This document shows positions 17,841-36,479 of a stretch of DNA of 41,974 nucleotides, piece by piece. Numbering within the stretch: position 1 is the stretch's first letter; every line of letters begins with the position of its first letter. This stretch comes from Muribaculaceae bacterium (GTDB taxonomy: Bacteria; Bacteroidota; Bacteroidia; Bacteroidales; Muribaculaceae). The translations under genes and the position numbers were made by a program. The notes under the pieces were generated by a model that did not search any database, was not told the DNA's origin, and saw only the letters and a list, made by a program, of their open reading frames with translations. Location of the stretch: positions 1-41,974 of the forward strand of contig JAFYYG010000072.1 of assembly GCA_017557625.1 (NCBI GenBank). The letters run 5' to 3'.

Positions 17841-18683
17841 TTAATTAGAGTGATACTTGATGAGACCTTCCATTGGGGCTTGAATGATAGTGCCGATGGT
17901 GATGCCGAGCTTGTTGGCAGCTTCAACGAGTACGTCCTTCTGCAACAGGGCGATGGAGCCCACAAAGTTGCAAGGCAATTCTTTGTAGTGTGGGTAGCTT
18001 GCAACGTTGCGCACGAAGAAGTCGGTAAACGAGCGCATTACGATGGCTTTAATAGACGGCTCATTGATGTTGTGCTCAAGGAATGGGGCAAACTGTGCCA
18101 AGAAACGGTTGGCGGCGGGTTTGCGGTAAACACGGTCGATGATGGTGGTGCGGTCGAGGTTGTACTCTTTAAGGAATTTCTCGCACAGGTGCTCGGGGAG
18201 CTGCTTCTTGAGCACATCGCCTACGAGGAGCTTTCCCAACACAGCGCCGCTGCCCTCGTCGCCGAGGATGTAGCCAAGAGGCGACACGTTGTCAACCACT
18301 TTCTCGCCATCGTAGTAGCAGCTGTTGCTGCCAGTGCCGAGGATGCAGGCGATACCCGGCTCACGCTGGCACAGTGCACGTGCTGCACCGAGCAGGTCGG
18401 TGTCAACCTCAATCTTATTGACGTGAGGCATATTGCGCTTGAGCGCGTTAATCACCTGGTTCTTAATCTCGTCGCTGATGATTCCAGCACCGTAGTAGTA
18501 AATCTCGGTAACTTCATACCCTCTAAGGCTGGGCATGAGTTCGTTCATGATGCATTCTGCCATCTCTTCTTCGGTCATGAGCAGTGCGTTCATGCCAGTG
18601 GTGAAGATTTGGGCAACTTTCTTTTTTCCGTTTAGCAGGCACCAATCAATCTTGGTGGAGCCGCTGTCAGCAATTAAAATCAT
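17841..18683 (-). CDS. murK: BadF/BadG-type amino-sugar kinase, probable MurNAc kinase
   Basis: A 280-residue ASKHA-fold kinase. The N-terminal phosphate-1 loop is intact, IADSGSTKIDW with Asp6, and the phosphate-2 and hinge motifs are CILGTGSNSCYYDG and GYILGDEGSGAVLG. Relatives include eukaryotic N-acetylglucosamine kinase and the MurK enzymes of Clostridium and Tannerella, which phosphorylate MurNAc (and in Clostridium also GlcNAc). The assignment to MurNAc rests on its position directly upstream of murQ; specificity for GlcNAc cannot be excluded. A -7-like element lies just before its start, so it may have an internal promoter. Confidence 0.85.
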   Translation of the reverse strand: MILIADSGSTKIDWCLLNGKKKVAQIFTTGMNALLMTEEEMAECIMNELMPSLRGYEVTEIYYYGAGIISDEIKNQVINALKRNMPHVNKIEVDTDLLGAARALCQREPGIACILGTGSNSCYYDGEKVVDNVSPLGYILGDEGSGAVLGKLLVGDVLKKQLPEHLCEKFLKEYNLDRTTIIDRVYRKPAANRFLAQFAPFLEHNINEPSIKAIVMRSFTDFFVRNVASYPHYKELPCNFVGSIALLQKDVLVEAANKLGITIGTIIQAPMEGLIKYHSN

Positions 18684-20526: not shown

Positions 20527-23319
20527 TTATTGTCTTGTTTGCAATTTTGTCACTTCATCGATTAGGTAGATTAGCGACTGGTAGGGGATGCCGCTGTGGG
20601 TTGTGAGGCCTATCTCGCAGGTGCGGCTGTTGCTGAAGCCGCGGCGTATGCCTGCCGCCTCAATTTGAGGACGGAGCTTGCGCAGGGCGTAGGCGTTGAG
20701 CTCGGGATGCGTGAATCCCTTGTCGCCGGCGAAGCCGCAACATCCCACTCCCTCAGGGATGAGGACATTGGTGGAGCATCGCTTGGCGAGGTCGAAAATC
20801 TTGTTGTCAATCTTCATCAGGCGTGTGGAGCAGGTGAGGTGCAGGGCGATTGGTTCATCGGTTGGCGTGAACTCCAAGTCTTGCGCCACATAGTCGTGGA
20901 CGAACTCCATAAGCTCTAATGGTTTCACTTGCTTCATGTGTTCACGCATTTGGTGAAGACACGGACTTTGGTCGCACATCACGGGATATTTGCCGCCGTT
21001 GCTCGCTTTGAGCAGAGCTTGCTCGAGTTCGTCGGACTTCTGCTGAGCGATGTCGGGCATACCCTTGCTGTTCCAAATCATGCCGCAGCACAGATTTTTC
21101 ATGTTTTCGGGATAGATAACTTCCCAACCTGCTTTGTTGAGGAAAGAAACCACCTTATCCACGAGGTCTATTTCCACTCCATGCTTGTCTTTTCCGAGTG
21201 CTTGGTTGAGGCAACTGGGGAAATAGACGACCTTCTTGTCGCTCGCAGGTTGCTGGAGCGACTTCATTTTGTGGGGTTTGGGTGTAGCGGGAGTCCACAA
21301 TGGAACTCCAACGGCGTGCATCGCCTTGCCCACAGCCCTCACGCCACCGTCACCCAGCACCGAATGTGCTGCACTGGCAACATAGAGTAGTGATTTGAGG
21401 CTGCCTTTAGTAAATGAGAAGTGTCGTGCCACGCTGTTGCCCACACCGTGAGCGAATGTGCCTTTGCCATGTCGCTCGGTGCGCAGGTCGTGTGTGAGTT
21501 CTCCCACATTGATACCCATTGGGCACGATGTGGAGCAAAGTCCGTCGGCAGCGCAAGTTGCTTCGCCGTAGTATTTATATTGTTTCTCGAGGCGTTTCAA
21601 TCGCGCTGGGTCTTCGCCAGTGTCTCTAAGTCGTGAAATCTCACGCTGCACGATGATGCGCTGGCGTGACGAGAGAGTTAGTCCGCTGCTCACGCAATTC
21701 ACCTCGCAGAACCCGCACTCGATGCACTTGTTCACGTTGTCGTTGGTCAAGGGCATGGGTTTGAGGTTCTTGATGAAGCACTCAGGGTCATCGTTGAAAA
21801 TCACGCCCGGGTTGAGGATGCCTTTGGGGTCAAATAGCTGCTTCACGTCGAGCATCACCTGATAGGCCTTCTCGCTCCATTCCTTCTTGACGAATGGCGC
21901 CATGTTGCGGCCCGTACCGTGTTCTGCCTTAAGCGAACCGTCATATTTGTCTATCACCAGCTCCACCACTGCGCGCATCAGATTCTCGTAGCGGGAAATC
22001 TCTTCTTGCGTGTCAAAAGATTGCGAAATTATGAAGTGGTAGTTCCCCTCAAGGGCGTGGCCGTAGATGCAGCTGTCGTCATAGCCGTAGTCGATGAGCA
22101 TCTGTGCCAAGTCAACGGTGGCATCGGGCAAATCCTCAATATGGAATGCCACATCCTCGATAAGCACTGTGGTGCCGAGCGGACGAGTGCCGCCTACGCT
22201 TGGGAAGATACCCGAACGTATTGCCCAGTACTTGCCATAAATCTTTGGATCATCGGTGAAGTTGGCTGGCACATACAGGTGGAAAGGCTCAAGGATAGCC
22301 ATTATCTCGTTGATATTGCTTTGAAGCTCCACTTTGCTGTCGGCAAAGGTTTGGATAAGCACTGCGGTGAGGTTCTCGCCGGTGTTGTCGTCAACGCTGG
22401 CAAGTGATTTCTTGTCGAGAATCTCGGCGCAGTGCACAGGTCCTTTCTTCATAGCCACCACCGCCTCACACGACTCGCGCATATCCTGGAAATAGAGCAT
22501 CGCGCTGGCGCGGCAAGGATATAGGTGGCCGGTCTTCATCGTGAACTCGCTGGCAAAGGCAAGAGTGCCCTCGCTGCCCACGATGAGGTGCGTGATGATG
22601 TCGAAGGGGTCATTATAAAGCACAAATGGCGAGATATTCAGACCCGTAACGTTCTTGATGGAGTATTTGCGACGGATGCGCTCTTTGAGCTCGTCGTCGG
22701 TCATTACTCGGTCGCGAATCTTCTCGATACGCTTGATGAAGTCGGGATGCGACTGCTTGAAAGCGTTGCGGCTTGCCTCGTCGCCAGTGTCAAGCACGGT
22801 GCCATCGGCAAGGACGATGCGCATAGAGAGCATCATGCGGTCGCTGTTGGCGTGTGTTCCGCAGCTCATTCCGCTGGCGTTGTTGATGACAATGCCACCC
22901 ACCATCGCCGAGTTCTTGCTGGCGGGGTCAGGGGTGAAGGTTCGGTTGTGTCGCGCGAGAATCTTGTCAACCTCGCTGCCCACGAGACCTGGTTGCAGCT
23001 TGATGTAGCTTGCGTCGGGTGCCACCTCATAGTTCTCCCAGTTCTTGCCGGCGACGATGAGTATGGAGTCGGTGTTGGTTTGTCCGCTCAGGCTGGTGCC
23101 CGCAGCGCGGAAGGTCACCGGTAGGTGCATCTCGTTGGCGATGGCAAGTAGTTGCGACACCTCTTGCTCATTCATGGAACGCACCACCACTTGTGGGATG
23201 TTGCGGTAGAAGCCAGCATCGGTGCCCCACGCCAGGCAATGCAGGTCGTCGGTGTAGATGCGGTCTTTAGGGATAAACTCCCTGATGCGCTTGAGATATG
23301 TCTTGTGGCTGTCGTCCAT
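20527..23319 (-). CDS. FAD/Fe-S D-2-hydroxyacid dehydrogenase (GlcD-GlcF fusion, YdiJ-like), probable D-lactate dehydrogenase
   Basis: A 930-residue fused oxidoreductase. The N-terminal FAD-binding_4 domain (about 40-265) contains the flavin motif RAAGTSLSGQT and GGIVINNASGMSCG; the FAD-oxidase C-terminal domain contains YGHALEGNYHF and AEHGTGRN (about 418-471). Two iron-sulfur cysteine sets follow, Cys532/535/538/542 and Cys589/595/599. The C-terminal part carries CCG-type motifs (NLCCGMIW and GCCGFAGDKGF) as in GlcF/HdrB proteins. The family oxidises D-lactate or D-2-hydroxyglutarate and passes electrons to quinone or another carrier. Because MurQ four genes on releases D-lactate, D-lactate is the natural candidate substrate here. 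Confidence 0.87.
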   Translation of the reverse strand: MDDSHKTYLKRIREFIPKDRIYTDDLHCLAWGTDAGFYRNIPQVVVRSMNEQEVSQLLAIANEMHLPVTFRAAGTSLSGQTNTDSILIVAGKNWENYEVAPDASYIKLQPGLVGSEVDKILARHNRTFTPDPASKNSAMVGGIVINNASGMSCGTHANSDRMMLSMRIVLADGTVLDTGDEASRNAFKQSHPDFIKRIEKIRDRVMTDDELKERIRRKYSIKNVTGLNISPFVLYNDPFDIITHLIVGSEGTLAFASEFTMKTGHLYPCRASAMLYFQDMRESCEAVVAMKKGPVHCAEILDKKSLASVDDNTGENLTAVLIQTFADSKVELQSNINEIMAILEPFHLYVPANFTDDPKIYGKYWAIRSGIFPSVGGTRPLGTTVLIEDVAFHIEDLPDATVDLAQMLIDYGYDDSCIYGHALEGNYHFIISQSFDTQEEISRYENLMRAVVELVIDKYDGSLKAEHGTGRNMAPFVKKEWSEKAYQVMLDVKQLFDPKGILNPGVIFNDDPECFIKNLKPMPLTNDNVNKCIECGFCEVNCVSSGLTLSSRQRIIVQREISRLRDTGEDPARLKRLEKQYKYYGEATCAADGLCSTSCPMGINVGELTHDLRTERHGKGTFAHGVGNSVARHFSFTKGSLKSLLYVASAAHSVLGDGGVRAVGKAMHAVGVPLWTPATPKPHKMKSLQQPASDKKVVYFPSCLNQALGKDKHGVEIDLVDKVVSFLNKAGWEVIYPENMKNLCCGMIWNSKGMPDIAQQKSDELEQALLKASNGGKYPVMCDQSPCLHQMREHMKQVKPLELMEFVHDYVAQDLEFTPTDEPIALHLTCSTRLMKIDNKIFDLAKRCSTNVLIPEGVGCCGFAGDKGFTHPELNAYALRKLRPQIEAAGIRRGFSNSRTCEIGLTTHSGIPYQSLIYLIDEVTKLQTRQ

Positions 23320-23410: not shown

Positions 23411-23427
23411 AACACTTATCACTTATA
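23407..23427 (-). repeat. Three heptamers spanning the namZ stop codon
   Basis: The plus strand reads ACTTAAC, ACTTATC, ACTTATA; on the gene strand these are AAGT-type units that start before the stop codon and run past it. They correspond to the AAGTGTT units at the stop of the S41 protease 20 kb away. Confidence 0.65.
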
Positions 23428-24672
23428 AAGGTAATACTTTGAGGACTTTGCTTTGAAAGAATCGTTGTCTTTGTTGAAGTAGTCGATGATGTCTTCCACT
23501 TTGTAGCGCTTGCAGAATCGTTCGCGTATTTCCTTGGTGCCGCACACCTTGTCGAACATAGCATAGCGCTTTGGGTTCTGCTCAAAGAGCTGCTGCTTGG
23601 GGTACATCTCATGAATCACTTGTAGGAAGTAAAACTGAGTGAGCACAAGATTTGCCTTGTCGAGGTCGGTGATGTAAATCTGCACGCCGTGAACCTCTTG
23701 CAAAGACTTGTCAACAGCCACGCTCAGAGCGAAGAATGGCTTGTAGTTGATGGGGCGGAAGTGCATGCCTGGCAGGTTTAGTGCGTTCATGTTCTTGGCA
23801 AGTTCCTCGGCGTCAATCCATGAGGCGGCGAAGCACTCGAAAGGCAACGTGTAGCCGATTCCGGTGTTGAAGATGTAGAGCTCTCCTAAGATTCCGCTCA
23901 CGGGATAGAAGAAGGCGTTCTCGGGGGCGGGAATCTGTGGTGATGGCAACACCCAGGGCATGCCAGTGTCACGGAACTTCATGTCGCGGGTCCAGCCTTC
24001 CATGGGGATGACGGTGAGTTTGCATTTCTTGCCTGTCTTAGAACCTTTGGCGATAATGCCTTCTTCATTAAGGTATTGTGCTAGTTCTCCAGGAGTCAAA
24101 CCATATAGATATGGGATGGCATATTTGCTCACGAAGGAGAAATATCCATCTTCCACGAGGTTGCCTTCCACCTTGTTTCCGCCAAGAGGGTTGGGGCGGT
24201 CGAGGACCATAAACTCCTTATTATGCTTGGCGCAGGCTTCCATGCACACGCCCATAGTGGCATAGAACGTGTAGCTGCGGCAGCCAATGTCCTGAATGTC
24301 ATAGATTAGCACGTCAATGTCTTTCAACATCTCGGCGGTGGGCTCGTGAGTCTTGCCAAATAGCGAGTACATCTTCACCCCAGTAGTGGGGTCAACGGCG
24401 TCGCCTACGGCATCTCCAGCATGTGCGTTGCCACGCACGCCATGCTCGGGACCAAACAACGCCACTAATTTCACTCCAGGTGCCTCATTGAGGATATCAA
24501 CTGTTGATTTAAGGTTATTGTCGATACCACTGGGATTGGTCACTAGTCCCACGCGCTTGCCCTGCAGCTCCTTGAAGCCGCCATCACGCAGCACCTCAAT
24601 GCCTGGTTTCACCACTGCGCTGGCCATAAATGCCACTATCGCTAAAGTTATAAATATAATGTGTCGTTTCAT
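23419..24672 (-). CDS. namZ: DUF1343 exo-beta-N-acetylmuramidase (NamZ-like)
   Basis: A 417-residue secreted protein of the DUF1343 family, whose characterised member NamZ of Bacillus subtilis removes MurNAc from the non-reducing end of peptide-free wall glycans. The signal peptide is MKRHIIFITLAIVAFMASA. Conserved stretches are GKRVGLVTNPSG, the motif LFGPEHGVRG with Glu76 (the position I recall as catalytic in NamZ), YDIQDIGCRSYTFY and VLDRPNPLGG. With MurK and MurQ it would supply free MurNAc. It lies between the AmpG-like gene and the dehydrogenase gene. Confidence 0.88.
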   Translation of the reverse strand: MKRHIIFITLAIVAFMASAVVKPGIEVLRDGGFKELQGKRVGLVTNPSGIDNNLKSTVDILNEAPGVKLVALFGPEHGVRGNAHAGDAVGDAVDPTTGVKMYSLFGKTHEPTAEMLKDIDVLIYDIQDIGCRSYTFYATMGVCMEACAKHNKEFMVLDRPNPLGGNKVEGNLVEDGYFSFVSKYAIPYLYGLTPGELAQYLNEEGIIAKGSKTGKKCKLTVIPMEGWTRDMKFRDTGMPWVLPSPQIPAPENAFFYPVSGILGELYIFNTGIGYTLPFECFAASWIDAEELAKNMNALNLPGMHFRPINYKPFFALSVAVDKSLQEVHGVQIYITDLDKANLVLTQFYFLQVIHEMYPKQQLFEQNPKRYAMFDKVCGTKEIRERFCKRYKVEDIIDYFNKDNDSFKAKSSKYYLYK

Positions 24673-24964: not shown

Positions 24965-26998
24965 TTACGATTCACTTTCTTCGCTCTTTTCTTTAAGACC
25001 AAATGATGGGTCAACTTTGATAATTAGTGCTGCGCCAATAGTGAACAAGCAGCAAATCATGGTCCAGATGAAGAAATTCTGATAACCGATGAGGTCTTCG
25101 AGCCATCCTGCAATCATACCCATCATCATAGACAAGGCCATGAAACCAGTGCATATAGCGTAGTGAGCAGTCTTGTATTTTCCTTCGCTATAATAGATGA
25201 GGTAAAGCATATAGGCTGTGAATCCAAAACCATAACCAAATTGTTCAATGAATACACAGATGTTGATGGTTAGGAAACTTTGGTCTTGGGTGAATGACAG
25301 GTAGATGAACGTCAGGCAAGTTAATGACATGCTCCATGCCATTGGGTGTAACCATTTCTTTAGTCCGCCTTTAGCTGCTAAGATGCCGCCAATGATACCG
25401 CCTATTGTTAGACCAATGATACCAACGGTGCCATAAACTATACCTACTTGACTGGTAGATAGGGCCAAACCTCCTTTATCTAATGGATCTACAAGGAACG
25501 GCATGATGATTTTAGTCAATTGTGCCTCGGGGAATCGATAGAAAAGCATGAAAAGAATAGCTGCCACAGTTTGCCAAACAGGGAATTTCGTGAAGAAAGT
25601 CTTAAATGTATCCAAGAAACCTAAAGCAATCTCTTTGGCATTTTTCTTTTCTTGGTTGGCGTCAACTGCTGGTTTAGGCATAGCCCAAGTGTGATAAAGA
25701 GCAATGATTAAGAAAAAGATAGAAAGAACCACAAACACAATTGCCCATGCAAGTGGTATGTTGCCCGACGTGCCTATAAATGATGAAGATACTTTCTCTT
25801 TAATTTTATTGTCAATAGAGAAGTAAATGTAAGCAGGCTTATCCCAGTTCTTGTCATTGAAGACAAATCGTGTTTGGGTGGCCTTAATATCTGTACTTCC
25901 TTTATCATTGGCAATATTTAAGATATATTCTTCTCCAGCTTTAGGCTGTTTGTTTAATCTAACGGCAACTACCGCAAAATTAGATGCTTTGTCATCCGAT
26001 TTCTTCTCTTTGAATTTGTCAGGGAAAGTGGTGGCAATCCAATTCTCTAATCCTGATTTTTCTTCCTCTTTTTTAGTAAGTTTGTCATCAAGAGTAGTTA
26101 TTGTCGAACCATTAGGGTCTTTTCCGTAATAAACGAAATGATCCTTTTGCCAACTAGCGCTATCCAGTTTGAAATCTGTCGTTTCTTGGAAAACAAGTTT
26201 GTCATCTTTTGTGAATTTAGGGTCTGGAATATAGAAACCATTAGCTATGTTTGCATTGTTAATGGAGTCGCTGATTGTTTTGTTGTAATCGGCAAAAGCA
26301 AGAGTGCTGTCCCCCATTTGAGCACTAGAGGCAGCCTTAACAGAAGTGTTGATAGTGGTTGCACTAGTGACAAAATGAATATCATCGGAATTGTTGATGT
26401 CTTCCTCTGGTATCGTAGGCATTTCAGCTACAATCGCGTTAGCATTTGGATCGGCACTTATGTCTATTCTAACTGGATCGAGGCCAGAGTTCATTTCAAC
26501 AACACCAGCTAGAATAACAAGGAGTCCTTGCCCAACTACGGTGGCGATTCTATAGAAAGTAGAGCGAATACCCACAAAGAGTGATTGCTCATGTTCGGTA
26601 AGAGCAAGCATATAAAATCCGTCGGCAGCGATGTCGTGAGTTGCTGATGCAAATCCCATGAGCATAAACACCGCAAAGGTTAGTTGTACCCACCATGATG
26701 TGGGAATAGTGAAAGCAATGCCGGCGAGAGCAATGGCAATGACCCATTGCATTATTAGAACCCACCAGCGCTTAGTCTTAATGATATCAACAAAAGGACT
26801 CCAGAATGGTTTTATAACCCAAGGCAATCCTAACCATCCAGTATAAAGTGCAATGTCAGTGTTTGACATTCCAAGTCGCTTGTACATGATGACCGAAATT
26901 GTCATAACAGCAACGTAAGGAAGTCCTTGAGCGAAATATAATGTTGGAATCCAAGCCCATGGATTTCGTTTTATCGGGATATTCTTTTTATTGCTCAT
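24965..26998 (-). CDS. ampG: AmpG-like MFS muropeptide permease with a large periplasmic insertion
   Basis: A 677-residue 12-helix MFS transporter. The N-terminal motif PYVAVMTISVIMYK, the GLPWVIKPFWSPFVD segment and HDIAADGFYMLAL are AmpG/SLC33-like features. Usual AmpG proteins are 400-500 residues; the excess is a hydrophilic insertion at about 170-410 between helices 5 and 6, a loop that topology places in the periplasm. Its second half (about 340-400) has alternating beta-strand character with a motif like RFVFNDKNWDKPAYIYF that resembles Calx-beta-type or BACON-like sandwiches. AmpG imports GlcNAc-anhydroMurNAc peptides; here the substrate could also be free MurNAc or disaccharide. The neighbours support peptidoglycan salvage strongly. 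Confidence 0.83.
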   Translation of the reverse strand: MSNKKNIPIKRNPWAWIPTLYFAQGLPYVAVMTISVIMYKRLGMSNTDIALYTGWLGLPWVIKPFWSPFVDIIKTKRWWVLIMQWVIAIALAGIAFTIPTSWWVQLTFAVFMLMGFASATHDIAADGFYMLALTEHEQSLFVGIRSTFYRIATVVGQGLLVILAGVVEMNSGLDPVRIDISADPNANAIVAEMPTIPEEDINNSDDIHFVTSATTINTSVKAASSAQMGDSTLAFADYNKTISDSINNANIANGFYIPDPKFTKDDKLVFQETTDFKLDSASWQKDHFVYYGKDPNGSTITTLDDKLTKKEEEKSGLENWIATTFPDKFKEKKSDDKASNFAVVAVRLNKQPKAGEEYILNIANDKGSTDIKATQTRFVFNDKNWDKPAYIYFSIDNKIKEKVSSSFIGTSGNIPLAWAIVFVVLSIFFLIIALYHTWAMPKPAVDANQEKKNAKEIALGFLDTFKTFFTKFPVWQTVAAILFMLFYRFPEAQLTKIIMPFLVDPLDKGGLALSTSQVGIVYGTVGIIGLTIGGIIGGILAAKGGLKKWLHPMAWSMSLTCLTFIYLSFTQDQSFLTINICVFIEQFGYGFGFTAYMLYLIYYSEGKYKTAHYAICTGFMALSMMMGMIAGWLEDLIGYQNFFIWTMICCLFTIGAALIIKVDPSFGLKEKSEESES

Positions 26999-27018: not shown

Positions 27019-28344
27019 TTAGTATATACTCTTAATTTGTGCGTCAATGAAGTAGTGCAGTAGGATTTGCTGGTAGTTGTAGCCTTTAGCACCCATTACT
27101 GCGGCGCCTATTTGGCAGAGGCCCACACCGTGTCCCCATCCAGCGCCCCGAAGGATAAATTTCTCGGGGAAGCCGTCGGGAATTTCGTTGATTTTCTCTA
27201 CGATAAAGGCCGAGCTGTATAGGCAAGATGTGGAGAGGGCATATCGTATAGACAGTTCCTTGCCAATAGTTTTGGTCATCTTCTCACCCACGATGCGGAG
27301 TTTGTAGAGACGTCCGCTTGTGCCGCGTGCTATTGGTTCGAGGTCGATGATGCGACCATAGTCGTCACCAGTGCGCTCACGGATGATGCGGCTCAGCTCT
27401 TCTTGAGTGTATTCCACACGCCACCGGTAAAAGTCGGTTGTCTCTTGGTCATAATCGTTTAGCACTTGCGAGAGAATCTCTTTGTCGGTGGTGTTGCAGT
27501 GTGCATGTGGTGAGGAAAGAATCCAGTCGGCTGCATTATCTTCGCGGGTAAGGTCGGGGAAGTTCATCTCGTCGTCATCGTCGCGGCGTGCCACCAAATA
27601 GGGGTGGTGGTCGTCTTGCCAGCAGTTCTCAAACTGCTCATACACTCCACCGCACGACTTTGAGAATCGTGCATCGCATAATTCGCCTCCATACATCAGC
27701 ACTTGTCCCCAAGTGGCTTCGATGGCCTGACGCACCGCCTCGGTCGAGGCGCGTGTGATGCCCTGATAACGCTGGCAATGGTCATCGGCGCACACGTCGA
27801 AGTTCACGTGGTCGTCGCGGTCCCACCACTTTATTTCCTCGTCTTCGCTGCTGGTCTCATATTCTTGATGCAGACCAGGTTGTGCTGCTGTAGCAACATT
27901 GTCTTTGTGGATTTGCGCCAGCAGCCAGCTTCGTGAGATTACAGCATGAGCCTTAAGCAGCTCTAATGATGCAGTGGCGCTCATCTCACTGGAAATCACG
28001 CTCAGCAGGTATTCTTCCACCGAGAGAATGTTGATTGCAGTGATTTTGTCATTTTCGACAATGAGATGCAGCGCGCCCCTGAAGGTTTGGTTCTCTTGAC
28101 GGCGCCAATGGAAGCTGACTCCAATAGTCACGTTTTCGAGAGTGAAAGAGTCGCTATCGACATTGTTTGGTTCAAAAAGCAAGTCGTGGTATTTCTTGCC
28201 GTTCCATACCACCATACCCTCGACGCATTGCGCCAGTTGGTTTCCAGTAACTTTCTCGCCGTCAACACGATAGTCGCCGTTGAGTTCAAACTCTATCATA
28301 GGCTCAGTCATGATGCCTACTCTAACTTGGGGAACTTGTGCCAT
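27019..28344 (-). CDS. SpoIID/LytB-domain protein without a visible signal peptide
   Basis: A 441-residue member of the SpoIID family, whose best-known members are lytic transglycosylases acting on peptide-free glycan strands during sporulation. The key region is EYLLSVISSEMSATASLELLKAHAVISRSW, with Glu120 at the position of the catalytic Glu, and the C-terminal signature is RGAGWGHGVGLCQIGA. The N-terminus, MAQVPQVRVGIMTEP, leads straight into a beta-strand domain and shows no hydrophobic signal, unlike what an exported enzyme needs. It overlaps the DUF4922 gene by 23 bases and precedes the AmpG-like gene by 20 bases, so it is co-translated with the former. Confidence 0.83.
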   Translation of the reverse strand: MAQVPQVRVGIMTEPMIEFELNGDYRVDGEKVTGNQLAQCVEGMVVWNGKKYHDLLFEPNNVDSDSFTLENVTIGVSFHWRRQENQTFRGALHLIVENDKITAINILSVEEYLLSVISSEMSATASLELLKAHAVISRSWLLAQIHKDNVATAAQPGLHQEYETSSEDEEIKWWDRDDHVNFDVCADDHCQRYQGITRASTEAVRQAIEATWGQVLMYGGELCDARFSKSCGGVYEQFENCWQDDHHPYLVARRDDDDEMNFPDLTREDNAADWILSSPHAHCNTTDKEILSQVLNDYDQETTDFYRWRVEYTQEELSRIIRERTGDDYGRIIDLEPIARGTSGRLYKLRIVGEKMTKTIGKELSIRYALSTSCLYSSAFIVEKINEIPDGFPEKFILRGAGWGHGVGLCQIGAAVMGAKGYNYQQILLHYFIDAQIKSIY

Positions 28345-29317
28345 AATTAGTTGTTTTATTTAAAGAGTAATATGTTAAGAGATCCCTTAAATTTCTTGCA
28401 ATATCGCCAATTTCCTTGATTGAGAGACACACATCAGAGAGGATGCATTCCACATCGTGAAAAGTAATCTTTTTAAAATCCTTTTCTCTTGCTATTGGCC
28501 ACAATCCCCCTAATTCGGCTGCGGCAGGACTAATAATGAACTGTCCATCACTACATCCATAGCATGAAGGACGATGGTTGCTGCGTGGAAATGCTGCCAC
28601 ATACCATGTTTCGTTTTTATACCAACACAGAATGTTTATCATTGGTTCAGTTTGTCCTTCATGCACAGGCAACCAATTAATGAGGTCAGAAAGCCATTCC
28701 TCGCCATTTTTTAAATTTGGAGTGCTGATGAAGAATACAGGGCAGAACCAATTTACGTTATAACCAAAACAATCTCTGTAATTGGAGTAGATTATAAGAA
28801 TAGTAAGTCTTGGCAGAACATTGCATATTGGCAAGTCTTCACGTAAGCCCGCCTGGAAGTGCATATGGTCGGGGGCCGAAGCTCCGCACTGGGGACCATT
28901 ATATAAAATGACATAATCCTGAAGGTCTTTAGCAATTTGCATCATGTCGCCAATTCGACCCTCGATGCGCTGATTAGTGTGTTCCAAAGTCGATATTGTG
29001 AGGTGTCGCTTGAAGATGGGGTAGGGGTTCACCTGAATTTTATATCTACCTTCCCAAATCACTGCTTGCTGCTCTGAGGGTTGATATTCATTGCACAAGA
29101 AGCATGGACGTTGACTTATTGTTTTGAGGTCAATGTTTACTATAGCTGAATGAATACGTTCAGGATTATACTGTAATACTAAGTCGAAATTATACTTTTG
29201 TATTTTGCGTATGTCGGCCTGTGAGAGACGGTTGTAGTTGTCTCTCACAGTGTCCCATTCATAAAACTGGCGTTTCAACAAATGTGTGACTTCTTCGTTA
29301 TAATTGCGTCTCATCAT
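28322..29317 (-). CDS. DUF4922 protein, HIT-superfamily nucleotide-sugar phosphorylase-like
   Basis: A 331-residue cytoplasmic protein. The motif GASAPDHMHFQAG holds HxHxQ at His151, His153 and Gln155, the active-site pattern of the GalT/Apa2/GDP-hexose phosphorylase branch of the HIT superfamily. An upstream RPCFLC pair (Cys72, Cys75) and a later CYGCSDGQFI segment are further conserved-looking points. This suggests phosphorolysis or transfer of a nucleotide from a nucleotide-sugar or dinucleotide, but no substrate has been established that I know of. The start at 29317 is chosen because its ATG overlaps the TGA of the upstream glycosyltransferase gene (ATGA); a longer frame upward to 29377 would lie inside that gene. 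It overlaps the SpoIID-like gene at its 3' end. Confidence 0.8.
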   Translation of the reverse strand: MMRRNYNEEVTHLLKRQFYEWDTVRDNYNRLSQADIRKIQKYNFDLVLQYNPERIHSAIVNIDLKTISQRPCFLCNEYQPSEQQAVIWEGRYKIQVNPYPIFKRHLTISTLEHTNQRIEGRIGDMMQIAKDLQDYVILYNGPQCGASAPDHMHFQAGLREDLPICNVLPRLTILIIYSNYRDCFGYNVNWFCPVFFISTPNLKNGEEWLSDLINWLPVHEGQTEPMINILCWYKNETWYVAAFPRSNHRPSCYGCSDGQFIISPAAAELGGLWPIAREKDFKKITFHDVECILSDVCLSIKEIGDIARNLRDLLTYYSLNKTTNYGTSSPS

Positions 29318-30822
29318 AGAGCGGTGCAGCAGCAACAGCTTTTTTTGTTCATCGCGATGCGTGCCATGAGCTCCCATGTGCGCATGCGGTCTTTGTAGAG
29401 GTTGTTGTTGTTCATCTTAACCACGTCGGCATTGGCGTCACTGTTGTCGTCCCAGCGGCGGCACAGGTAAACCGGCTCATAGACACGACCTATTTGGTAG
29501 GTGCGTGAGATGTTAAGACCTAATGCGTAGTCCTCGCCGTAGCTAACGTTGGGGAGCATCACTTCACGAAGCACAGGAGTGTAGAATGCGCGGGGAGCAC
29601 CAAGTCCGTTGATGCGCAAGGCGTTGTTGCGGCCGTTCTCGGGAGTCCACTCCTTGTGGTCGATTACGCCGGGAGGAATGGGGTTGCAATGGATGTCAGT
29701 CATCAGGTATGTGCCTACGACCATTGCCACGTTCTGCTCGTAGAAGGCATTAACCATAGTCTGCAAAGTGTTCTCGTCTTTATACATGTCATCGCTGTCG
29801 AGCTGAACAATAAACTTGCCAGCCTTAGAGTGATGAGCGGCGAGATTCCAGTAACCACCAATTCCCATGTCGTAGTAGTCGGCGATTATGTGGATGAGGC
29901 GTGGGTCATTATACTCAGCTATAGCCTCGCGGGTGCCATCGGTAGAGAAGTTGTCAACCACCATGAGGTTGAACTTGAAGTTGGTCTTCTGACAGAGTAC
30001 GCTATCAATGGCATCGCGAATTGTGCGGATGCGATTGCGAACGGGAATCATTACTGTGGCCTCTACTTCAAACTTATCGTGATCAAACTCGATGTGCTTG
30101 AAGTTGGGCACTTCCTTGCCGTCAATCACCTTAACTGGAGGCAGATAGCCGTCAATATCCTTAAGGTGCTCGGTGCACGCAGCTTCCATCTCGATTTGGC
30201 GGCCGCGGTTGCGTGGGTCAACGTAGTCGAAAATCTTCTCGCCACTCTTGCGGGTGTCAAGCTCCACATCGCTGTAAAGATATTCGTTGATGTGGGTGAT
30301 GAGACAGCGTTGCGAGAGTTTGAGGCGCAGATCATAAAGGCCGGCAAACTCGTAAGTCGCCTTCATCGCAGCGGCAGCCTTCTTGAAGCAGTCGGCGCAG
30401 AACACGAGCACTGAGCCGAAGTCAAAGTCATCGCGCAGTGAGCCAATCTGATAGTCAATAACTGGAGCCTTCACAGCGCCCTTGTCGGTCACGTTGTAAT
30501 GGTCGGCATAAACCAGGCCGCTGTCGGTATCGGCAAGAACTTTCACGAAGCGCTCAATAGCGTAAGGCGCGAACTTCAGTGTCACATACTTTGTGTAAAG
30601 CAACGTCACACATGCGTCGCTACGCTCAGCGATAGCCTTCATGGTGGCTGTGGAGGTGAGGTTGTTTACTTTAAGCATCTCGCAGCCGTCGATTGTGCCT
30701 TGAGCCTCCTCGTTGGCGAGCAAATAGATTTTGTTCACTAATGGACTGGCTTTAAGTCCATCTACTGTGGCCTGTGCTTGAGTAGCGTTGGCAAAAGGGA
30801 TAAAGCAATTAATCTTTGTCAT
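29314..30822 (-). CDS. GT2-family glycosyltransferase, copy B
   Basis: A 502-residue cytoplasmic glycosyltransferase with a C-terminal GT-A domain (about 254-480): ATVMIPVRNR, VVDNFSTDGT, and the metal-binding acidic motif LDSDD at 341-345. The N-terminal half (1-235) looks like a second, degenerate GT-A-like unit with LADTDSGLVYADH and a conserved GSLRDDFDFGSV segment. A C-terminal NNLYKDRMRTWELMARIA motif is shared with its neighbour. There are no membrane helices. Donor and acceptor are unknown. It is the second of two tandem paralogues and is translationally coupled to the DUF4922 gene by an ATGA overlap. Confidence 0.85.
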   Translation of the reverse strand: MTKINCFIPFANATQAQATVDGLKASPLVNKIYLLANEEAQGTIDGCEMLKVNNLTSTATMKAIAERSDACVTLLYTKYVTLKFAPYAIERFVKVLADTDSGLVYADHYNVTDKGAVKAPVIDYQIGSLRDDFDFGSVLVFCADCFKKAAAAMKATYEFAGLYDLRLKLSQRCLITHINEYLYSDVELDTRKSGEKIFDYVDPRNRGRQIEMEAACTEHLKDIDGYLPPVKVIDGKEVPNFKHIEFDHDKFEVEATVMIPVRNRIRTIRDAIDSVLCQKTNFKFNLMVVDNFSTDGTREAIAEYNDPRLIHIIADYYDMGIGGYWNLAAHHSKAGKFIVQLDSDDMYKDENTLQTMVNAFYEQNVAMVVGTYLMTDIHCNPIPPGVIDHKEWTPENGRNNALRINGLGAPRAFYTPVLREVMLPNVSYGEDYALGLNISRTYQIGRVYEPVYLCRRWDDNSDANADVVKMNNNNLYKDRMRTWELMARIAMNKKSCCCCTAL

Positions 30823-30840
30823 TTCTATAATATTATAAAA

Positions 30841-32283
30841 TTATTGTTTCTTATTGGTCTTTGTTCCTTTGTTAAGAGCAATTCTCGCCTGCACTTCCCA
30901 GGTGCGCAAGCGGTCCTTGTATAGGTTGTTTACGTTCTCCTGCTCAATGGTGAGGTTGGAGTCGGTGTTATCGTCGCCACGGCGGGCAAGAGTCATAACT
31001 TCCCGTACGCGCCCCACTTTATAGTAGCGCGAAATCATAAGCCCCATGCCGTAGTCTTCGCCATAGCTAGAGCAAGGCAGGCATGTTTCGCGATAGATTG
31101 GAGTGAAGAAGGCGCGTGGGCCACCGATGCCGTTCACTCGCAGCAGGTTGTTTCGGCCGTTCTCATAGGTCCACTCGCGATGGGCGATGATGCCTGGTGC
31201 AACTTCTTCTAAGTCTTTGTTGACAATTTGATAAGTACCAACAACCATAGCTGCATTTTCGTCATAAAATTTGTTGATTATAGTCTCTAGCGCATAAGGA
31301 GTAGCAAAAAGGTCATCGCTGTCAAGCCCTATGGCGAAGCGACCGCAACGCTCATCGTAGATGGCAAGGTTCCAGCATCCACCAATGCCTAAGTCGTAAC
31401 GTTCAGGAATAATGTGAATCAGGTGTGGGTCGTCGGCAAACTCATCGATAGCCTCTGTGGTGCCGTCGGTGGAGTGGTTGTCAACTACAATGAGGTTGTA
31501 TTCAAATCGTGTTTCTTGTTCAAGTACGCTCTTGATGGCATCGCGAATAACATTCTCGCGGTTGAGGACGGGGATGATTACCGAACACTCAACAGGGAAA
31601 GATCCTTCCCATAGGTCAATGTCGCGATATTGAGATGGTTGCAAATAAGCGCCTATCATCTGTAAATGATGAGTGCACACTTTCTCCATCTCAAGTTGTT
31701 TCCAGACAGCGTCGGCAGCTTGATAGTCGAAGATGCGCTCGCCACTGCTGCGGGTGTCGATTTCGCCGCAGGTGTATAGATATTCGGGAATATGCACAAT
31801 CCTTCCAAGTCGCGACAAGGCTAGTCTCACAGCATAGAATCCGGCATAATCCAACGTTTTGAAGGCCAACGATGCATCTCTAACTGCCTTGAAAAAGGTC
31901 TTGGTAGGTATCATGACAATCTGCCCGAAATCGAAGTCATCGCGCAGAGACCCTTCTTGATAGTCAATTAAAGGATGTTTTGCCAGTTGGCCATTTCCCA
32001 AACGCGTATTATGGTCGGCATAGACCATCACAGCATTGGTGTCTTGAGCGACTTTTAGCATGCGACGTAACGCCATATGCCCCATTTCGATTGGAACATC
32101 GTTAAGGATTACAACAAGAAAATCGCTAATGCCGATGATGTCGGTATCGCTCGACCAAGACGCTAGCTGTTGCAAATCATAGTTATAGTGACTGATTTGT
32201 TTGCAGGCCAGGTCTCCTGATGATAAGGACAAAGGCGTGTCAAATACTAAGACTTTTATTGATATGCTGGTGTTGTCGCTCAT
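30841..32283 (-). CDS. GT2-family glycosyltransferase, copy A
   Basis: A 480-residue paralogue of the following gene with the same two-part layout: an N-terminal unit with YADHNTRLGN and GSLRDDFDFGQI, then a GT-A domain from about 233 with CSVIIPVLNR, VVDNHSTDGT and LDSDD at 320-324. It ends with the same NNLYKDRLRTWEVQARIAL motif. The shared GSLRDDFDFG segment in both copies suggests a family-specific binding site. It is separated by 8 bases from the amidase gene upstream and 18 bases from copy B downstream, so the set is one transcription unit. Tandem duplication followed by divergence is the simplest origin. Confidence 0.85.
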   Translation of the reverse strand: MSDNTSISIKVLVFDTPLSLSSGDLACKQISHYNYDLQQLASWSSDTDIIGISDFLVVILNDVPIEMGHMALRRMLKVAQDTNAVMVYADHNTRLGNGQLAKHPLIDYQEGSLRDDFDFGQIVMIPTKTFFKAVRDASLAFKTLDYAGFYAVRLALSRLGRIVHIPEYLYTCGEIDTRSSGERIFDYQAADAVWKQLEMEKVCTHHLQMIGAYLQPSQYRDIDLWEGSFPVECSVIIPVLNRENVIRDAIKSVLEQETRFEYNLIVVDNHSTDGTTEAIDEFADDPHLIHIIPERYDLGIGGCWNLAIYDERCGRFAIGLDSDDLFATPYALETIINKFYDENAAMVVGTYQIVNKDLEEVAPGIIAHREWTYENGRNNLLRVNGIGGPRAFFTPIYRETCLPCSSYGEDYGMGLMISRYYKVGRVREVMTLARRGDDNTDSNLTIEQENVNNLYKDRLRTWEVQARIALNKGTKTNKKQ

Positions 32284-32291
32284 AGATTGTC

Positions 32292-35200
32292 TTATTTCTC
32301 AAAGAAGTTGAGCACTCGGCTCATGAATGTGTTGCGCTCGGTCTCGCTCTTGATGGTCTCGAAGGGGAACCCAACAACCACTGTCTTGTAACCGTAGCGG
32401 CTTGAGGCGATGCCGGCGGGGATGTTGTTCTCGCTGTAGCGCAGGATGGTAGCGCCGCAGTCGTCGCTAGCCTTGATAGCGTCGGGCGACTCAACAGCAT
32501 AGAAATCGCTGTTGAGAGTGTTGTAGAACGACAGTTTGCCCATGCCGTCGCTCATCTTGAGTGTTGACGGCACACTATAGACCTCACCCATGAGAGTGGC
32601 GCGGCCATCGACCCAGGTATAACCCATCACGTTGTTGGCGAAATGTATTTCGTTTTGTGCGGGGGTGTCCTTGTCCCAGATGTCGCTGCCCACGTAAGCA
32701 CCTGTCATCAGCACATTGCCACCGTTACGGGTATAGTCAGTGAGAGCTTTCATAAATTCGCTTGTGAATGCTTTGTAGCGCGAAGGCTTCACGCCGCGTC
32801 CTGTGGGAGTTTCTTTCTGTTTGCCCACAATAATGTCGAGGGCGCAGTATTCTGAGAGGTACACATCGCCATTCTCCACCGCCTTTACGCTGGCAGATAC
32901 AAACGAGTAGCCAGCCTTCATGATCGCCGCGCCGTGTAGCGAGGGATAGTTGAAAGTGTTGCCGGCGATGTTCTGTGTCTCGTAGTTGCTGCGACATGCG
33001 CCGAATCCTGGTGCGTCGTCGTCGCGCCACTCCAAGTTGCGACGGAACTCAAACTGCGAACCGAGGAAGTTGATTTGCTCCATATAGGGCACGCCGTGGT
33101 CTTTGTTGTCGTAGAATCCAGCCATCTTGCCGCTGTCAAACCAGTCAGGACCGCTGATGCGTGTGAAGTCGTTGACCACCATCACGGTGCCTTTGCTGTT
33201 TTTTGCAACACCTAACGAGAGAGTCTCGCTCGGGAAGCTGCGACCGCCCTCGTTCATGGCTATGATTTTGTAGCTGTGTATCTCGTTGTCGTCGATGTGA
33301 ACCGAGTAGTGCGGCTCATCAACAATTTCTATCTCTTTAAATCCGCCGTCGCCCACTTGTTCCATAACGATATATTTCTTAGCCACGGCACTTGCGCACA
33401 AAGGGTCGGGAGTTGACTCCCAGTTGAGCATGTAGAGCGACTCGCTCACTTTGTTGATTGCAAACGCACTGACTGGCAATGGTTGAATGACGCACTCACG
33501 ATGGTCGCGTTTGGCGATGAACTTGGCGATTCCCTTATATATGGAGCGGCTCACGTCAAAGCGGAACTGCGGGTCTAGACCATACTTCATGTCGGCGAAG
33601 TTTTGGTGCGACAGCAGTTCCATAAGCAGTGCCGGCACCTCGGGCACGCGGGCCTCGTAGTAAGCCTTGTCCCACATTCCGCGGCGGGTCCAGTTGGGCT
33701 CGTACTTGGCGCGGATGTCGTTTACCACTTCGGTAGATACGATGTCGGCAAACTGTCTCGAGAGTTCACGGGGTGTACCGTTCTCATATTTGCCGAATTG
33801 CTTGCCGTTCTTGGTGGTGCAATATATGAGAAGCGTGCCGATGATGTCGTCGTTCTTTGTGGTGCCGGCATCGGTGTGTAGGCAGAATGACACATCAACA
33901 GGGACATTCAGACCGGGCTTTCCTGGCAGCACGTCGCTTCCGCCGGCGAGCCAATTGACCCATTCGCCGCGGCTGCGGTAGTCGTCAACATAGTCGTTGA
34001 TGCCGTCACTGGTGGAATACACCTTGTGGGGGAATCCAGACCATTGCAGGAAATAGCGTGCTCCCAAGTGGAACCAGGGGTGGTCGCCGCTGCCCACATA
34101 CTGGTAATCGACGCCTTCCTTGCCCAGGTATTTCATGTCATCGTTCTTTTCGGCGATGGCTCTGTTCTCGGGAGTGGGGAGCGCCACGCGACGCACGATA
34201 TTGCCCTTGCCTCCGCCCACCTTGATGGCGTCGGCGGTGATGACGGCTTTCTTGTCGTCGCTGAGGTTGCTGAGTGTCACCACGTTTTTGTTCATGCCCT
34301 TAGCGAGCTGGAAAGAGCCGAGATACACCCACACACCGCCAGCCATGCTTTGGTCAACCTTGAACTGTTGGCTGCCGTTGAGGGTGTTGATGGTATAAGT
34401 GGCGTCGTGTGCGCTATTTGGCAGCGACTTGTAGCTCACATAGATGGCAAAAGTACCGGCTTCGGGCATGTCCACGTCCCACGATGCTGTGGCAACTTTC
34501 TTTTTGTCTTTCTCCGCCTCGATCATGCGGTATGAGCCTTCCTCAAAAGGGTTCTCGAAGTCTTTATACTCGTTTCGGTTGTAGGCGAAGCCGTTGCCTT
34601 CTCCGTTTTTCCATTTCTTGCCGCCGTTGGTCTCGTGGTAGCCGTTCTGCGCGTTGCCGCCGTCGTTATCGACCACAGCGCCGAAGTTGTGGGTGTCGCG
34701 CTCGCGAGGGTCCCACACATAGGCCCCGGCATTCTCAAGCATGGGCATGATATAGGGAATCATGTAGCTGTGGGTGTACATGTCCTCCACAGTTTGGAAC
34801 AATCGTGCCCGTTGCCATTCCCAGCGGTTGAGGTAAGGCTCAAAATACCATCCATGGCTGGGCCACACCGCCACGATATTTCCGCTCAGACCTTTCTTGT
34901 AATGGCGGCTCTCATCTAAGGGAGTGATAAAGGCGTTGTGCTTGCGCTTATAGGAGTTGTCGAAATCGGAGAAATAGTTCTCGATGTCGTTGCCGGCGAT
35001 GCTGATTGCCACCTTGTGGTCACGGTATTGTTCACCTAGAGCGGCCGAGATGTCGGCTTTAAGACTTTTAATGCTTTCTTGAGAGAACGGCACGTCGCCG
35101 AAATTCTCGCTCAGGTCAATTTTGATGGAGTCGTCAACAACGTCGATGGATTTCACCTTCAGCTCCCCGATGCCCATGTGCTCGGGCATGGTGGAGGTGA

Positions 35201-35315
35201 TTATACGTTGAACTCTATCTGTCTCTTCTTGGGTTAACGCTTGGCCGTGTAATGTCACTGCGCTAATGACAATAGCCGCTACAGCCAATAATGATTGTTT
35301 CTGTTTAAATGTCAT
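32292..35315 (-). CDS. Secreted N-acetylmuramoyl-L-alanine amidase-like protein with nested carbohydrate-binding-like and Fn3 domains
   Basis: A 1007-residue exported protein often labelled xanthan lyase in databases. After a signal peptide (to about HGQA) comes a small domain, then the first part of an Amidase_3-like zinc fold with WPSHGW (His154) and Glu166. At about 260-370 a golvesin/xanthan-lyase C-terminal-type beta-sandwich is inserted (RMIEAEKDKKK to TADAIKVGGG). The amidase fold resumes with CLHTDAG (His480) and the catalytic-type Glu566 in LLMELLSHQ. A fibronectin-III-like domain (about 612-710) and a C-terminal domain of about 290 residues, possibly ThuA/glutamine-amidotransferase-like, follow. 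Cleavage of the MurNAc-L-Ala bond is inferred from these residues. It is the first gene of the main salvage operon. Confidence 0.82.
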   Translation of the reverse strand: MTFKQKQSLLAVAAIVISAVTLHGQALTQEETDRVQRIITSTMPEHMGIGELKVKSIDVVDDSIKIDLSENFGDVPFSQESIKSLKADISAALGEQYRDHKVAISIAGNDIENYFSDFDNSYKRKHNAFITPLDESRHYKKGLSGNIVAVWPSHGWYFEPYLNRWEWQRARLFQTVEDMYTHSYMIPYIMPMLENAGAYVWDPRERDTHNFGAVVDNDGGNAQNGYHETNGGKKWKNGEGNGFAYNRNEYKDFENPFEEGSYRMIEAEKDKKKVATASWDVDMPEAGTFAIYVSYKSLPNSAHDATYTINTLNGSQQFKVDQSMAGGVWVYLGSFQLAKGMNKNVVTLSNLSDDKKAVITADAIKVGGGKGNIVRRVALPTPENRAIAEKNDDMKYLGKEGVDYQYVGSGDHPWFHLGARYFLQWSGFPHKVYSTSDGINDYVDDYRSRGEWVNWLAGGSDVLPGKPGLNVPVDVSFCLHTDAGTTKNDDIIGTLLIYCTTKNGKQFGKYENGTPRELSRQFADIVSTEVVNDIRAKYEPNWTRRGMWDKAYYEARVPEVPALLMELLSHQNFADMKYGLDPQFRFDVSRSIYKGIAKFIAKRDHRECVIQPLPVSAFAINKVSESLYMLNWESTPDPLCASAVAKKYIVMEQVGDGGFKEIEIVDEPHYSVHIDDNEIHSYKIIAMNEGGRSFPSETLSLGVAKNSKGTVMVVNDFTRISGPDWFDSGKMAGFYDNKDHGVPYMEQINFLGSQFEFRRNLEWRDDDAPGFGACRSNYETQNIAGNTFNYPSLHGAAIMKAGYSFVSASVKAVENGDVYLSEYCALDIIVGKQKETPTGRGVKPSRYKAFTSEFMKALTDYTRNGGNVLMTGAYVGSDIWDKDTPAQNEIHFANNVMGYTWVDGRATLMGEVYSVPSTLKMSDGMGKLSFYNTLNSDFYAVESPDAIKASDDCGATILRYSENNIPAGIASSRYGYKTVVVGFPFETIKSETERNTFMSRVLNFFEK

Positions 35316-35612: not shown

Positions 35613-36479
35613 TCATTCGGCTTTCATGCCCACCGAGTGATAGACCACTAGTCCTGGCATCGATTCGCTAACGATTTTCTTGACGTTCACGTTGTAGCTG
35701 TAGGCCACTTGCAGCAGAATCTCACTGTAGCGGGTGGCCACCGAGCCTACAAAGCACACGGGGTAGTCTTTGTAGTCATACTGGCAGATGTTGCGGTCGA
35801 AGAATCGCTTTATTTCGTTGGTGACGAGGTTGTAGCAATACTCGTTGTCAAGGTGGTCGGCAAGGAAGAACGAGTAGTTGTGGAGGTTGTTGTTGGCGTA
35901 TGGGTTGTTATACACGGCATCCATCACATTGGCGCTGGTTAGTTTGTTCACAGCATAGAACTCCTCAATCAGTTCTTTGGGAGCTAGGTTTTTGAGAACG
36001 TCGCTCATGAAAATGCGACCCATCGACGAACCGCTGCCCTCGTCGCCCAGGATGAAGCCGCCAGGGGTCACGCTCTTGGTGATGCGCTCGCCGTCATAGA
36101 AGCAGGAGTTGGAGCCGTTGCCTAGGATACACGCTAGCCCCGCCTCGTTCTGAAGCAGTCCGTGAGCGGCACCCACGAGGTCGCTCTCAACAACCACAGG
36201 TGTCTTGAACTGTGCCACGAGCGACAGTTCCACAATCTTGTTGCGCTCTGGGTTGGAGCATCCCGCGCCATAAAAAAACACTTTGTCCCAGCGACGCTTG
36301 AAGAAATCACGAGGTAATTCAAGCCTGATGATGTGGCTTATTTCCCTGCGTGTCAAGAAATAAGGGTTGATGCCTGAGATCACTGCGTGAGCCACCACGT
36401 TGTTGCCGTCAACCAAGCTCCACTCAGAGCGAGTTGACGAACTCTCGGCAATTACTTTAGCAAATTGACTTGCAGCCAT
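35613..36479 (-). CDS. BadF/BadG-type kinase paralogue with an altered phosphate-1 loop
   Basis: A 288-residue paralogue of the MurK-like protein. The later motifs are kept: CILGNGSNSCFYDG, GFILGDEGSGSSMG and CFVGSVA. The N-terminal phosphate-1 loop differs at four key places: IAESSSTRSEW here against IADSGSTKIDW in the murK copy, so Asp becomes Glu12, Gly becomes Ser14, Lys becomes Arg17 and Asp becomes Glu19. It may be a kinase with altered kinetics, a sensor, or an inactive regulator; GlcNAc kinase is the other option. It has its own -7-like element and terminator, so it is expressed separately from the operon that follows. Confidence 0.8.
   Translation of the reverse strand: MAASQFAKVIAESSSTRSEWSLVDGNNVVAHAVISGINPYFLTRREISHIIRLELPRDFFKRRWDKVFFYGAGCSNPERNKIVELSLVAQFKTPVVVESDLVGAAHGLLQNEAGLACILGNGSNSCFYDGERITKSVTPGGFILGDEGSGSSMGRIFMSDVLKNLAPKELIEEFYAVNKLTSANVMDAVYNNPYANNNLHNYSFFLADHLDNEYCYNLVTNEIKRFFDRNICQYDYKDYPVCFVGSVATRYSEILLQVAYSYNVNVKKIVSESMPGLVVYHSVGMKAE

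Follow-up and report, generated by a model that had tools for sequence, protein, structure and literature searches.

The closest described system to the locus studied here is the peptidoglycan (PG) and N-acetylmuramic acid (MurNAc) scavenging operon of Tannerella forsythia (Tanf_08345-08385), in which genes designated 'xanthan lyase', gtf, gtf, lytB, ampG, ybbC, murT, murK and murQ follow one another (PMC5388701; for this and all other cited papers, we refer to the portions available to us). The operon yields one transcript, its promoter is activated by GppX in an Escherichia coli reporter, and for gtf and lytB the available text gives names and reports no functional test (PMC5388701). The AmpG permease of T. 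forsythia imports N-acetylglucosamine (GlcNAc)-anhydroMurNAc (anhMurNAc) as well as GlcNAc-MurNAc; no AnmK is predicted in this organism and the fate of anhMurNAc is described as 'to be explored' (PMC7670621). Here, we analyze a stretch of 41,974 nt (the window), the entire contig JAFYYG010000072.1 of a Muribaculaceae bacterium of the order Bacteroidales (assembly GCA_017557625.1, 3.05 Mb, estimated 88% complete), and focus on a module of glycosyltransferase (GT) genes, a DUF4922 gene and a gene for a 'long' type of SpoIID-family protein.

The genes for AmpG, NamZ, MurK, MurQ and a K1058-like kinase occur in the window in the same order as their T. forsythia relatives, with K1058 upstream, and for the two kinases the solved T. 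forsythia proteins MurK (8ow9) and K1058 (8ow7; both named according to PMC10465942) are matches with E<1e-88. From these kinase matches and the gene order we conclude that the window holds the counterpart of the T. forsythia scavenging region. Going by the published gene names, it differs from that operon in the combination of two GTs with a separate DUF4922 gene and in a flavin adenine dinucleotide (FAD)-linked oxidase; names and position suggest that lytB corresponds to the SpoIID protein and ybbC to NamZ. DUF4922 was found in 1 of 11 genomes of the genus around genome G495, a count that allows no interpretation as to T. forsythia. An earlier note on this DNA had called the module a candidate for an undescribed activity; 'undescribed' does not hold for the operon as published (PMC5388701) and may hold for its biochemistry. 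New here are the co-inheritance and the fusions of the GT-DUF4922-SpoIID unit. The four genes of the module lie as follows:

30841..32283, minus strand: GTa, a paralogous, lineage-specific GT of 480 amino acids (aa) (PF00535; own clade)
29314..30822, minus strand: GTb, the core GT of the module, a tandem GT-A protein of 502 aa (PF00535; C-terminal domain with DxD and GED)
28322..29317, minus strand: DUF4922 protein, phosphorylase-like, of the HIT superfamily and with an Apa2 fold (PF16269, E 5.6e-58; listed open reading frame (ORF) to 29377, 351 aa)
27019..28344, minus strand: SpoIID-family protein of the long type, 441 aa, putative cytosolic lytic transglycosylase/muramidase (PF08486, E 1.5e-24; TIGR02669 over cut-off; PDB 4rwr, 7.4e-29 by profile)

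ORF coordinates and Pfam matches confirmed the gene order and the tight spacing that had been noted before: gaps of 8 bases (between an upstream amidase-like gene and GTa) and 18 bases (GTa/GTb), an ATGA at 29317-29314 that forms the GTb/DUF4922 junction, and an overlap of 23 bases (28322-28344) between the DUF4922 and SpoIID frames, from which ampG is separated by another 20 bases. For DUF4922, a start at the ATG at 29317 or 29314 appears likelier than at the upstream ATG at 29377. The closest named relative by GTb, among the matches listed, was Muribaculaceae bacterium RGIG8108 (97%), where near-identical records may be absent.

Co-inheritance, adjacency and fusion of the module genes

We screened an order sample of 295 Bacteroidales genomes (G numbers; the genome of the window is G000) and found strong DUF4922 matches (>125 bits; two weak matches were put aside) in 71 of them. 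The GT profile (E<=1e-80, at most five candidates scored per genome) detected 74 genomes, comprising all 71 DUF4922 genomes plus G439, G472 and G475; one in-frame stop was present in 6 of the 76 GT matches listed. The SpoIID domain PF08486 occurred in 171 genomes, and its long form, called from the PF08486 match span (327-417 bases), was present among the matches listed in all 71 DUF4922 genomes and in G292 and G472, corresponding to 72 of the 74 GT genomes (the 71 and G472). All three components were thus present in 71/71 genomes with strong DUF4922. Furthermore, ten named genomes were checked at their GT locus, eight of which lacked an adjoining DUF4922 gene, and DUF4922 was found somewhere in 10/10. 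In a sample of the class, 6 of 198 genomes had DUF4922, namely that of the window and five from the same order. The Pfam family is wider than the order: of 14 control genomes, those of Synechococcus elongatus and Lactococcus lactis also gave matches over the cut-off of the model.

As a control for kinship we used a quickly built tree, based on a GH3 protein of ~1000 residues and covering 80 of the 295 genomes, 21 of which carry the module; being a single-gene tree of uneven composition, it serves as a guide only, and the genomes G292, G439 and G472 lie outside it. In independent pairs on this tree, the GT tracked DUF4922 in a mean of 8.9/9 (median p 0.0039) and the long SpoIID in 9/9 (median p 0.0039). 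For MurQ the corresponding value was ~6.5/9 (median p 0.03, range 0.008-0.45), and 30 of the 71 DUF4922 genomes had no strong MurQ match (>199 bits). With regard to genomes with and without MurQ and AmpG, a comparison that the earlier note had proposed, the unit is therefore not strictly tied to MurQ; AmpG was judged at the loci only.

The gene order was followed in 71 DUF4922 loci of up to 20 kb each, some ended by a contig edge (70 order-sample genomes and G170), and in a second set of 80 named loci. In the first set, a GT was present in 60 loci and lay immediately upstream of DUF4922 in 56, while SpoIID was present in 51 and immediately downstream in 44 (fusions included in both cases); the arrangement seen in the window is not accidental. 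AmpG and SpoIID were both found in 47 of these loci, with AmpG directly after SpoIID in 40. Moreover, GT, DUF4922 and SpoIID formed single frames in L107 (1266 aa, in a one-contig genome), in L066 (which ends at a contig edge) and in L218, a third triple fusion of 1257 aa located beside a second AmpG in the Prevotella genome behind L151. Partial fusions were seen in the order-sample loci for GT-DUF4922 (five) and DUF4922-SpoIID (five), and in the 80 named loci for three further GT-DUF4922 pairs, including Bacteroides xylanisolvens XB1A with its complete genome, and six DUF4922-SpoIID pairs. The linkers were short or absent, with -20 to 21 residues between the BLAST segments.

This genome comparison shows that the GT, DUF4922 and the apparently signal-less SpoIID are inherited together as one unit, whose genes are often neighbors and in some genomes fused. 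The possibility that the genes are rarely found together, which the earlier note had kept in view, does not apply given the 71/71 co-occurrence and the repeated fusions. In the literature accessible to us, which lies mostly outside subscription journals, neither DUF4922 nor a cytosolic SpoIID was connected with PG salvage in any listed title or abstract; the titles found for DUF4922 concern plant GGP genes, and the available portions of PMC5790795 and PMC6721243 held nothing on the module.

Properties of the module proteins

GTb consists of two GT-A domains in tandem, of which the C-terminal one holds the single intact active site. PF00535, the DxD motif and the conserved Asp of the GED motif place it in GT2 (GT-A fold); the GED motif presumably holds the catalytic base, as we assume from GT2 enzymes. 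The N-terminal GT-A domain, by eye, apparently lacks a DxD motif; the rows aligned to the GT model cover mostly the C-terminal domain, and the N-terminal one was assigned solely from K4CP and from secondary structure. The best solved matches were polymerases such as heparosan synthase and the E. coli chondroitin polymerase K4CP, the latter being the top match in structure as well as in sequence. The two GT-A domains are alike in K4CP and the window protein, whereas the domain placement (root mean square deviation of 21.7 A over both), the degenerate-looking N-terminal domain and the gene context differ.

The earlier note had pointed to two paralogous GTs. Both are indeed present in the window, but the pair is a local duplication, and a single GT is usual elsewhere. 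GTs side by side occurred in only 3 of the 80 named loci (L110, L113, L114), and two copies at E<=1e-80 in 2 of the 74 GT genomes, G000 and G032 (on separate contigs in the latter); two GTs, encoded at different loci, were also seen in the Prevotella genome that contains L151. In a 61-row tree, GTa and the copies of L110, L114 and L113 formed a fast-evolving clade of their own (100/100) apart from the GTb orthologues. GTa retains DSDD and GED, and Q340 (beside the DxD), Y452, C454 and W457 (GTb numbering), otherwise invariant in the alignment, are replaced, as would be expected for a copy with an altered pocket. On the evidence of the tree and the loci, GTa is a rare paralogue and a local addition outside the core module. 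The idea that two GTs are needed was rejected, since one GT is the rule and GTa forms its own fast clade.

His171, His173 and Gln175 (HxHxQ, the second His of which is the catalytic one in the Apa2/GalT branch) were found in 72/72 DUF4922 rows and aligned to the DHKHLQ of yeast Apa2, the diadenosine tetraphosphate (Ap4A) phosphorylase. DUF4922 has an Apa2-type fold, at ~16% identity to Apa2 and Foldseek TM-scores of only 0.49-0.62. Fold and motif support the earlier view of a HIT-type phosphorylase-like protein: DUF4922 is a member of the HIT superfamily in the Apa2/GalT phosphorylase-like branch, with catalysis predicted. Its context is PG sugar salvage, unlike that of Apa2 or of ADP-glucose phosphorylase and GalT in the GalT branch. 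Resemblance to Apa2 brings up the alternative that DUF4922 is an Ap4A phosphorylase controlling the alarmone Ap4A and unrelated to sugars. This appears very unlikely in view of the 71/71 co-occurrence and the repeated fusions with a GT and a PG-cutting domain, since there would be little reason for a housekeeping alarmone enzyme to follow their distribution.

In the SpoIID alignment, Glu120 and His179/Cys185/His189/Cys190 were present in 52/52 rows. Glu120 is in register with the Glu of the EM motif in SpoIID structures and was taken as catalytic; the catalytic Glu is E88 in Bacillus subtilis and E101 in Clostridioides difficile. The SpoIID domain and this Glu assign the window protein to the family, with membership resting on the domain and glycan cleavage being a prediction. 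Domain and Glu are common to the SpoIID of sporulating bacteria, and the H..C..HC motif, by eye, resembles the metal site of C. difficile, while the window type differs in having no apparent signal peptide, in being sometimes fused to cytosolic enzymes and in a usual length of ~410-480 aa. We know of no sporulation role in Bacteroidales.

For export we scored as a hydrophobic N-terminus a mean hydropathy of >=2.0 across 12 residues, with starts trimmed to 15 residues upstream of the homology, which is a simple measure and not a signal-peptide predictor. A hydrophobic N-terminus was found in 0/44 unfused long SpoIIDs, and in the controls in 13/15 short-type SpoIIDs of the same order, 24/25 NamZ, 16/19 amidase-like proteins and 0/21 of the cytosolic MurQ. 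This result gives no indication of export to the envelope and, together with the fusions to GT and DUF4922, places the long SpoIID in the cytosol, so that the module as a whole is apparently cytosolic. A plain explanation would be that SpoIID acts as a cytosolic muramidase or lytic transglycosylase on imported denuded oligosaccharides and that GT and DUF4922 only shuttle GlcNAc into uridine diphosphate (UDP)-sugar pools, with no new reaction. Known SpoIIDs cleave denuded glycan (PMC6221140, PMC6635528), and the protein studied here retains both the catalytic Glu and the metal-type residues, but the tight tie of GT and DUF4922 to SpoIID and the fusions would be left unexplained, and we regard this account as distinctly unlikely.

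Peptidoglycan-sugar genes around the module

In transcription order, the region comprises the K1058-like kinase, the Golvesin_C/Amidase_3-like gene, GTa, GTb, DUF4922, SpoIID, AmpG, NamZ, the FAD/Fe-S oxidase, the DUF5009-Sel1 gene, MurK, MurQ and a GDSL lipase. The genes flanking the module are:

35613..36479, minus strand: second MurNAc kinase, K1058 type (T. forsythia K1058 8ow7, E 7.4e-98)
32292..35315, minus strand: secreted Golvesin_C and Amidase_3-like protein in the 'xanthan lyase' position (PF25275, 2.1e-24; PF01520, 9.1e-5, below cut-off; hydrophobic N-terminus)
24965..26998, minus strand: AmpG-type permease for muropeptides, carrying a large insert (TIGR00901, E 3.5e-46, under the curated cut-off; MFS_1)
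23419..24672, minus strand: secreted exo-beta-N-acetylmuramidase NamZ (PF07075, 6.6e-85; PF20732, 2.7e-36; hydrophobic N-terminus)
20527..23319, minus strand: FAD-linked oxidase with Fe-S domains, plausibly a D-lactate dehydrogenase, the substrate being conjectural (PF02913, PF01565, PF13183)
18747..20513, minus strand: DUF5009 protein with Sel1 repeats, assigned to the MurT position by gene position alone (PF16401, 6.1e-4, below cut-off; Sel1)
17841..18683, minus strand: MurNAc kinase, MurK type (T. forsythia MurK 8ow9, E 4.5e-89)
16902..17723, minus strand: MurNAc-6-phosphate etherase MurQ (TIGR00274, 312 bits, over cut-off)

The PG-sugar genes AmpG, NamZ, MurK and MurQ surround the module and mark the locus as catabolic, in line with the earlier note, whose further proposal of a functional unit is backed by this setting along with the co-occurrence and fusions described above. 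It is very probable that the module, in the broad sense, serves cytosolic PG-sugar salvage. Another explanation is that proteins or surface polymers are the acceptors of the GTs, whose genes would only happen to lie among PG genes, and earlier authors did term the T. forsythia operon glycosylation related. A soluble GT that is fused to SpoIID and DUF4922 and co-inherited with SpoIID speaks against it, as does the Pfam scan, which covered part of the window genes and found neither an O-antigen nor an oligosaccharyltransferase family; we consider this explanation highly improbable.

Several observations concern individual neighbors. AmpG carries a hydrophilic insert of ~235 residues (residues ~172-406) with no Pfam match over cut-off, which by eye is apparently situated in a periplasmic loop between membrane helices 5 and 6. 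Of 50 AmpG matches in the order sample, 20 have at least 590 aa and 27 fewer than 500 aa; for 68 matches at the named loci the numbers are 20 and 48. The oxidase gene is placed between NamZ and the MurT-position gene, and its product is a plausible sink for D-lactate made by MurQ. The DUF5009-Sel1 protein has a C-terminal Sel1-repeat extension and 588 aa; many relatives have ~390 aa, and those of L112 and L113 have 576 aa. Elsewhere in the window, an AAA_21 ATPase fused to DUF4435 (8294-9886) shows an arrangement often met in OLD-like or defence-type ATPases, and a protein by the contig edge (40738-41922) combines BspA-type leucine-rich repeats with a dockerin type I domain.

Possible routes of cytosolic salvage

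The specific route that we favor is put forward tentatively, as possible rather than probable: the module would be the cytosolic core of PG-sugar salvage through a reverse GT reaction, phosphorolysis by DUF4922 and the action of SpoIID. Outside the cytosol, the secreted amidase-like protein would remove peptides and NamZ would trim glycans, before AmpG brings in GlcNAc-MurNAc and GlcNAc-anhMurNAc. The cytosolic SpoIID would act on the MurNAc or anhMurNAc bond, the GT would transfer the terminal sugar in reverse onto a nucleoside diphosphate (NDP), and DUF4922 would phosphorolyse the NDP-sugar to sugar-1-phosphate with regeneration of NDP. The net reaction would be the phosphorolysis of a disaccharide with NDP as catalytic shuttle; freed MurNAc would be processed by MurK and MurQ, and the FAD oxidase would take up its D-lactate. 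Reverse transfer coupled to phosphorolysis makes sense thermodynamically, leaves the nucleotide cycle closed and agrees with the fusions; a reversed GT, we infer, would need a phosphorolytic partner on energetic grounds. Furthermore, forward synthesis would be odd among genes of MurNAc catabolism.

A number of points weigh against this route. In G439 the GT adjoins a shorter signal-less SpoIID without DUF4922 (412 bits with the long-SpoIID profile, compared with 68-127 bits for 15 short-type proteins), G472 combines a divergent GT, a kinase-like gene in the place of DUF4922 and a SpoIID, and G292 yielded SpoIID alone, so that the steps of the module are separable. The intact DxD and GED motifs suit forward synthesis equally, and in a catabolic locus a hydrolase would suffice. 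Apa1/Apa2 reactions are reversible (PMC7705103), which lowers the reverse route and raises forward synthesis. As a side observation, the locus in G472 (L200, G472:C238, 4131-10733) contains the divergent GT, a 399-aa sugar-kinase-like ORF (by eye, with no Pfam match), a GDSL hydrolase, a long SpoIID and AmpG.

In such a forward direction, the GT would extend imported MurNAc or GlcNAc acceptors to a short cytosolic oligosaccharide for storage or priming, which SpoIID would trim, while DUF4922 would make or recover the NDP-sugar. Kept GT-A motifs, solved polymerases as best matches and the presence of the long SpoIID in nearly all GT genomes are consistent with this, as is the ability of Apa-type enzymes to run synthetically (PMC7705103). 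Set against these are the catabolic operon with MurK, MurQ and NamZ and the N-terminal GT-A domain, whose apparent lack of DxD makes an alternating two-sugar polymerase unlikely. All in all, forward synthesis seems somewhat unlikely to us.

A further question is the relation of the module to AnmK. AnmK was present in 11 of the 71 module genomes and in 188 of the 224 others (raw Fisher p 4e-26) and, taking one genome per family, in 2/25 with and 80/95 without the module (p 1e-12). Within mixed families, however, the difference all but disappears (6 observed, 6.67 expected). On the GH3 tree, 10 of the 21 module genomes fall into one clade and several separate acquisitions keep AnmK; only ~1.7/9 independent pairs differ in AnmK, and apart from rare pairings they do so as expected (median p 0.5). 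The raw exclusion is lost after phylogenetic correction, and a replacement of AnmK by the module stays a lead only. The 11 genomes with both AnmK and module all have MurQ; a strong MurQ match is missing from 171 of the 188 genomes that have AnmK but no module. A replacement of NagZ by the module was also considered, and the comparison is uninformative because 0/295 order genomes, with or without the module, reach the NagZ cut-off (the matches listed are mainly ~1000-aa GH3 proteins).

The AnmK data bear on an extended form of the favored reverse route, in which a nucleotide-shuttled phosphorylase complex would act: a reversed GT would cleave GlcNAc-(anhydro)MurNAc onto NDP, the Apa2-type enzyme would free sugar-1-phosphate and return the NDP, and SpoIID, without using ATP, would open the 1,6-anhydro ring. 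This form is quite doubtful, and SpoIID as ring opener is weakened by the non-significant exclusion and by the 11 module genomes that keep AnmK. If true, it would amount to NagZ- and AnmK-free PG recycling and could account for the use of GlcNAc-anhMurNAc by T. forsythia without a predicted AnmK.

PG salvage by Bacteroidales helps to determine the availability of muropeptides and MurNAc in gut and mouth. The published pathway has a gap at the cytosolic dismantling of imported GlcNAc-(anh)MurNAc where no AnmK is predicted (PMC7670621). For this gap, three specific enzymes that are inherited as one unit are put forward here, which makes it testable with purified proteins. Biochemically, both a cytosolic SpoIID and the fusion of a GT with an Apa2-type phosphorylase would be out of the ordinary.

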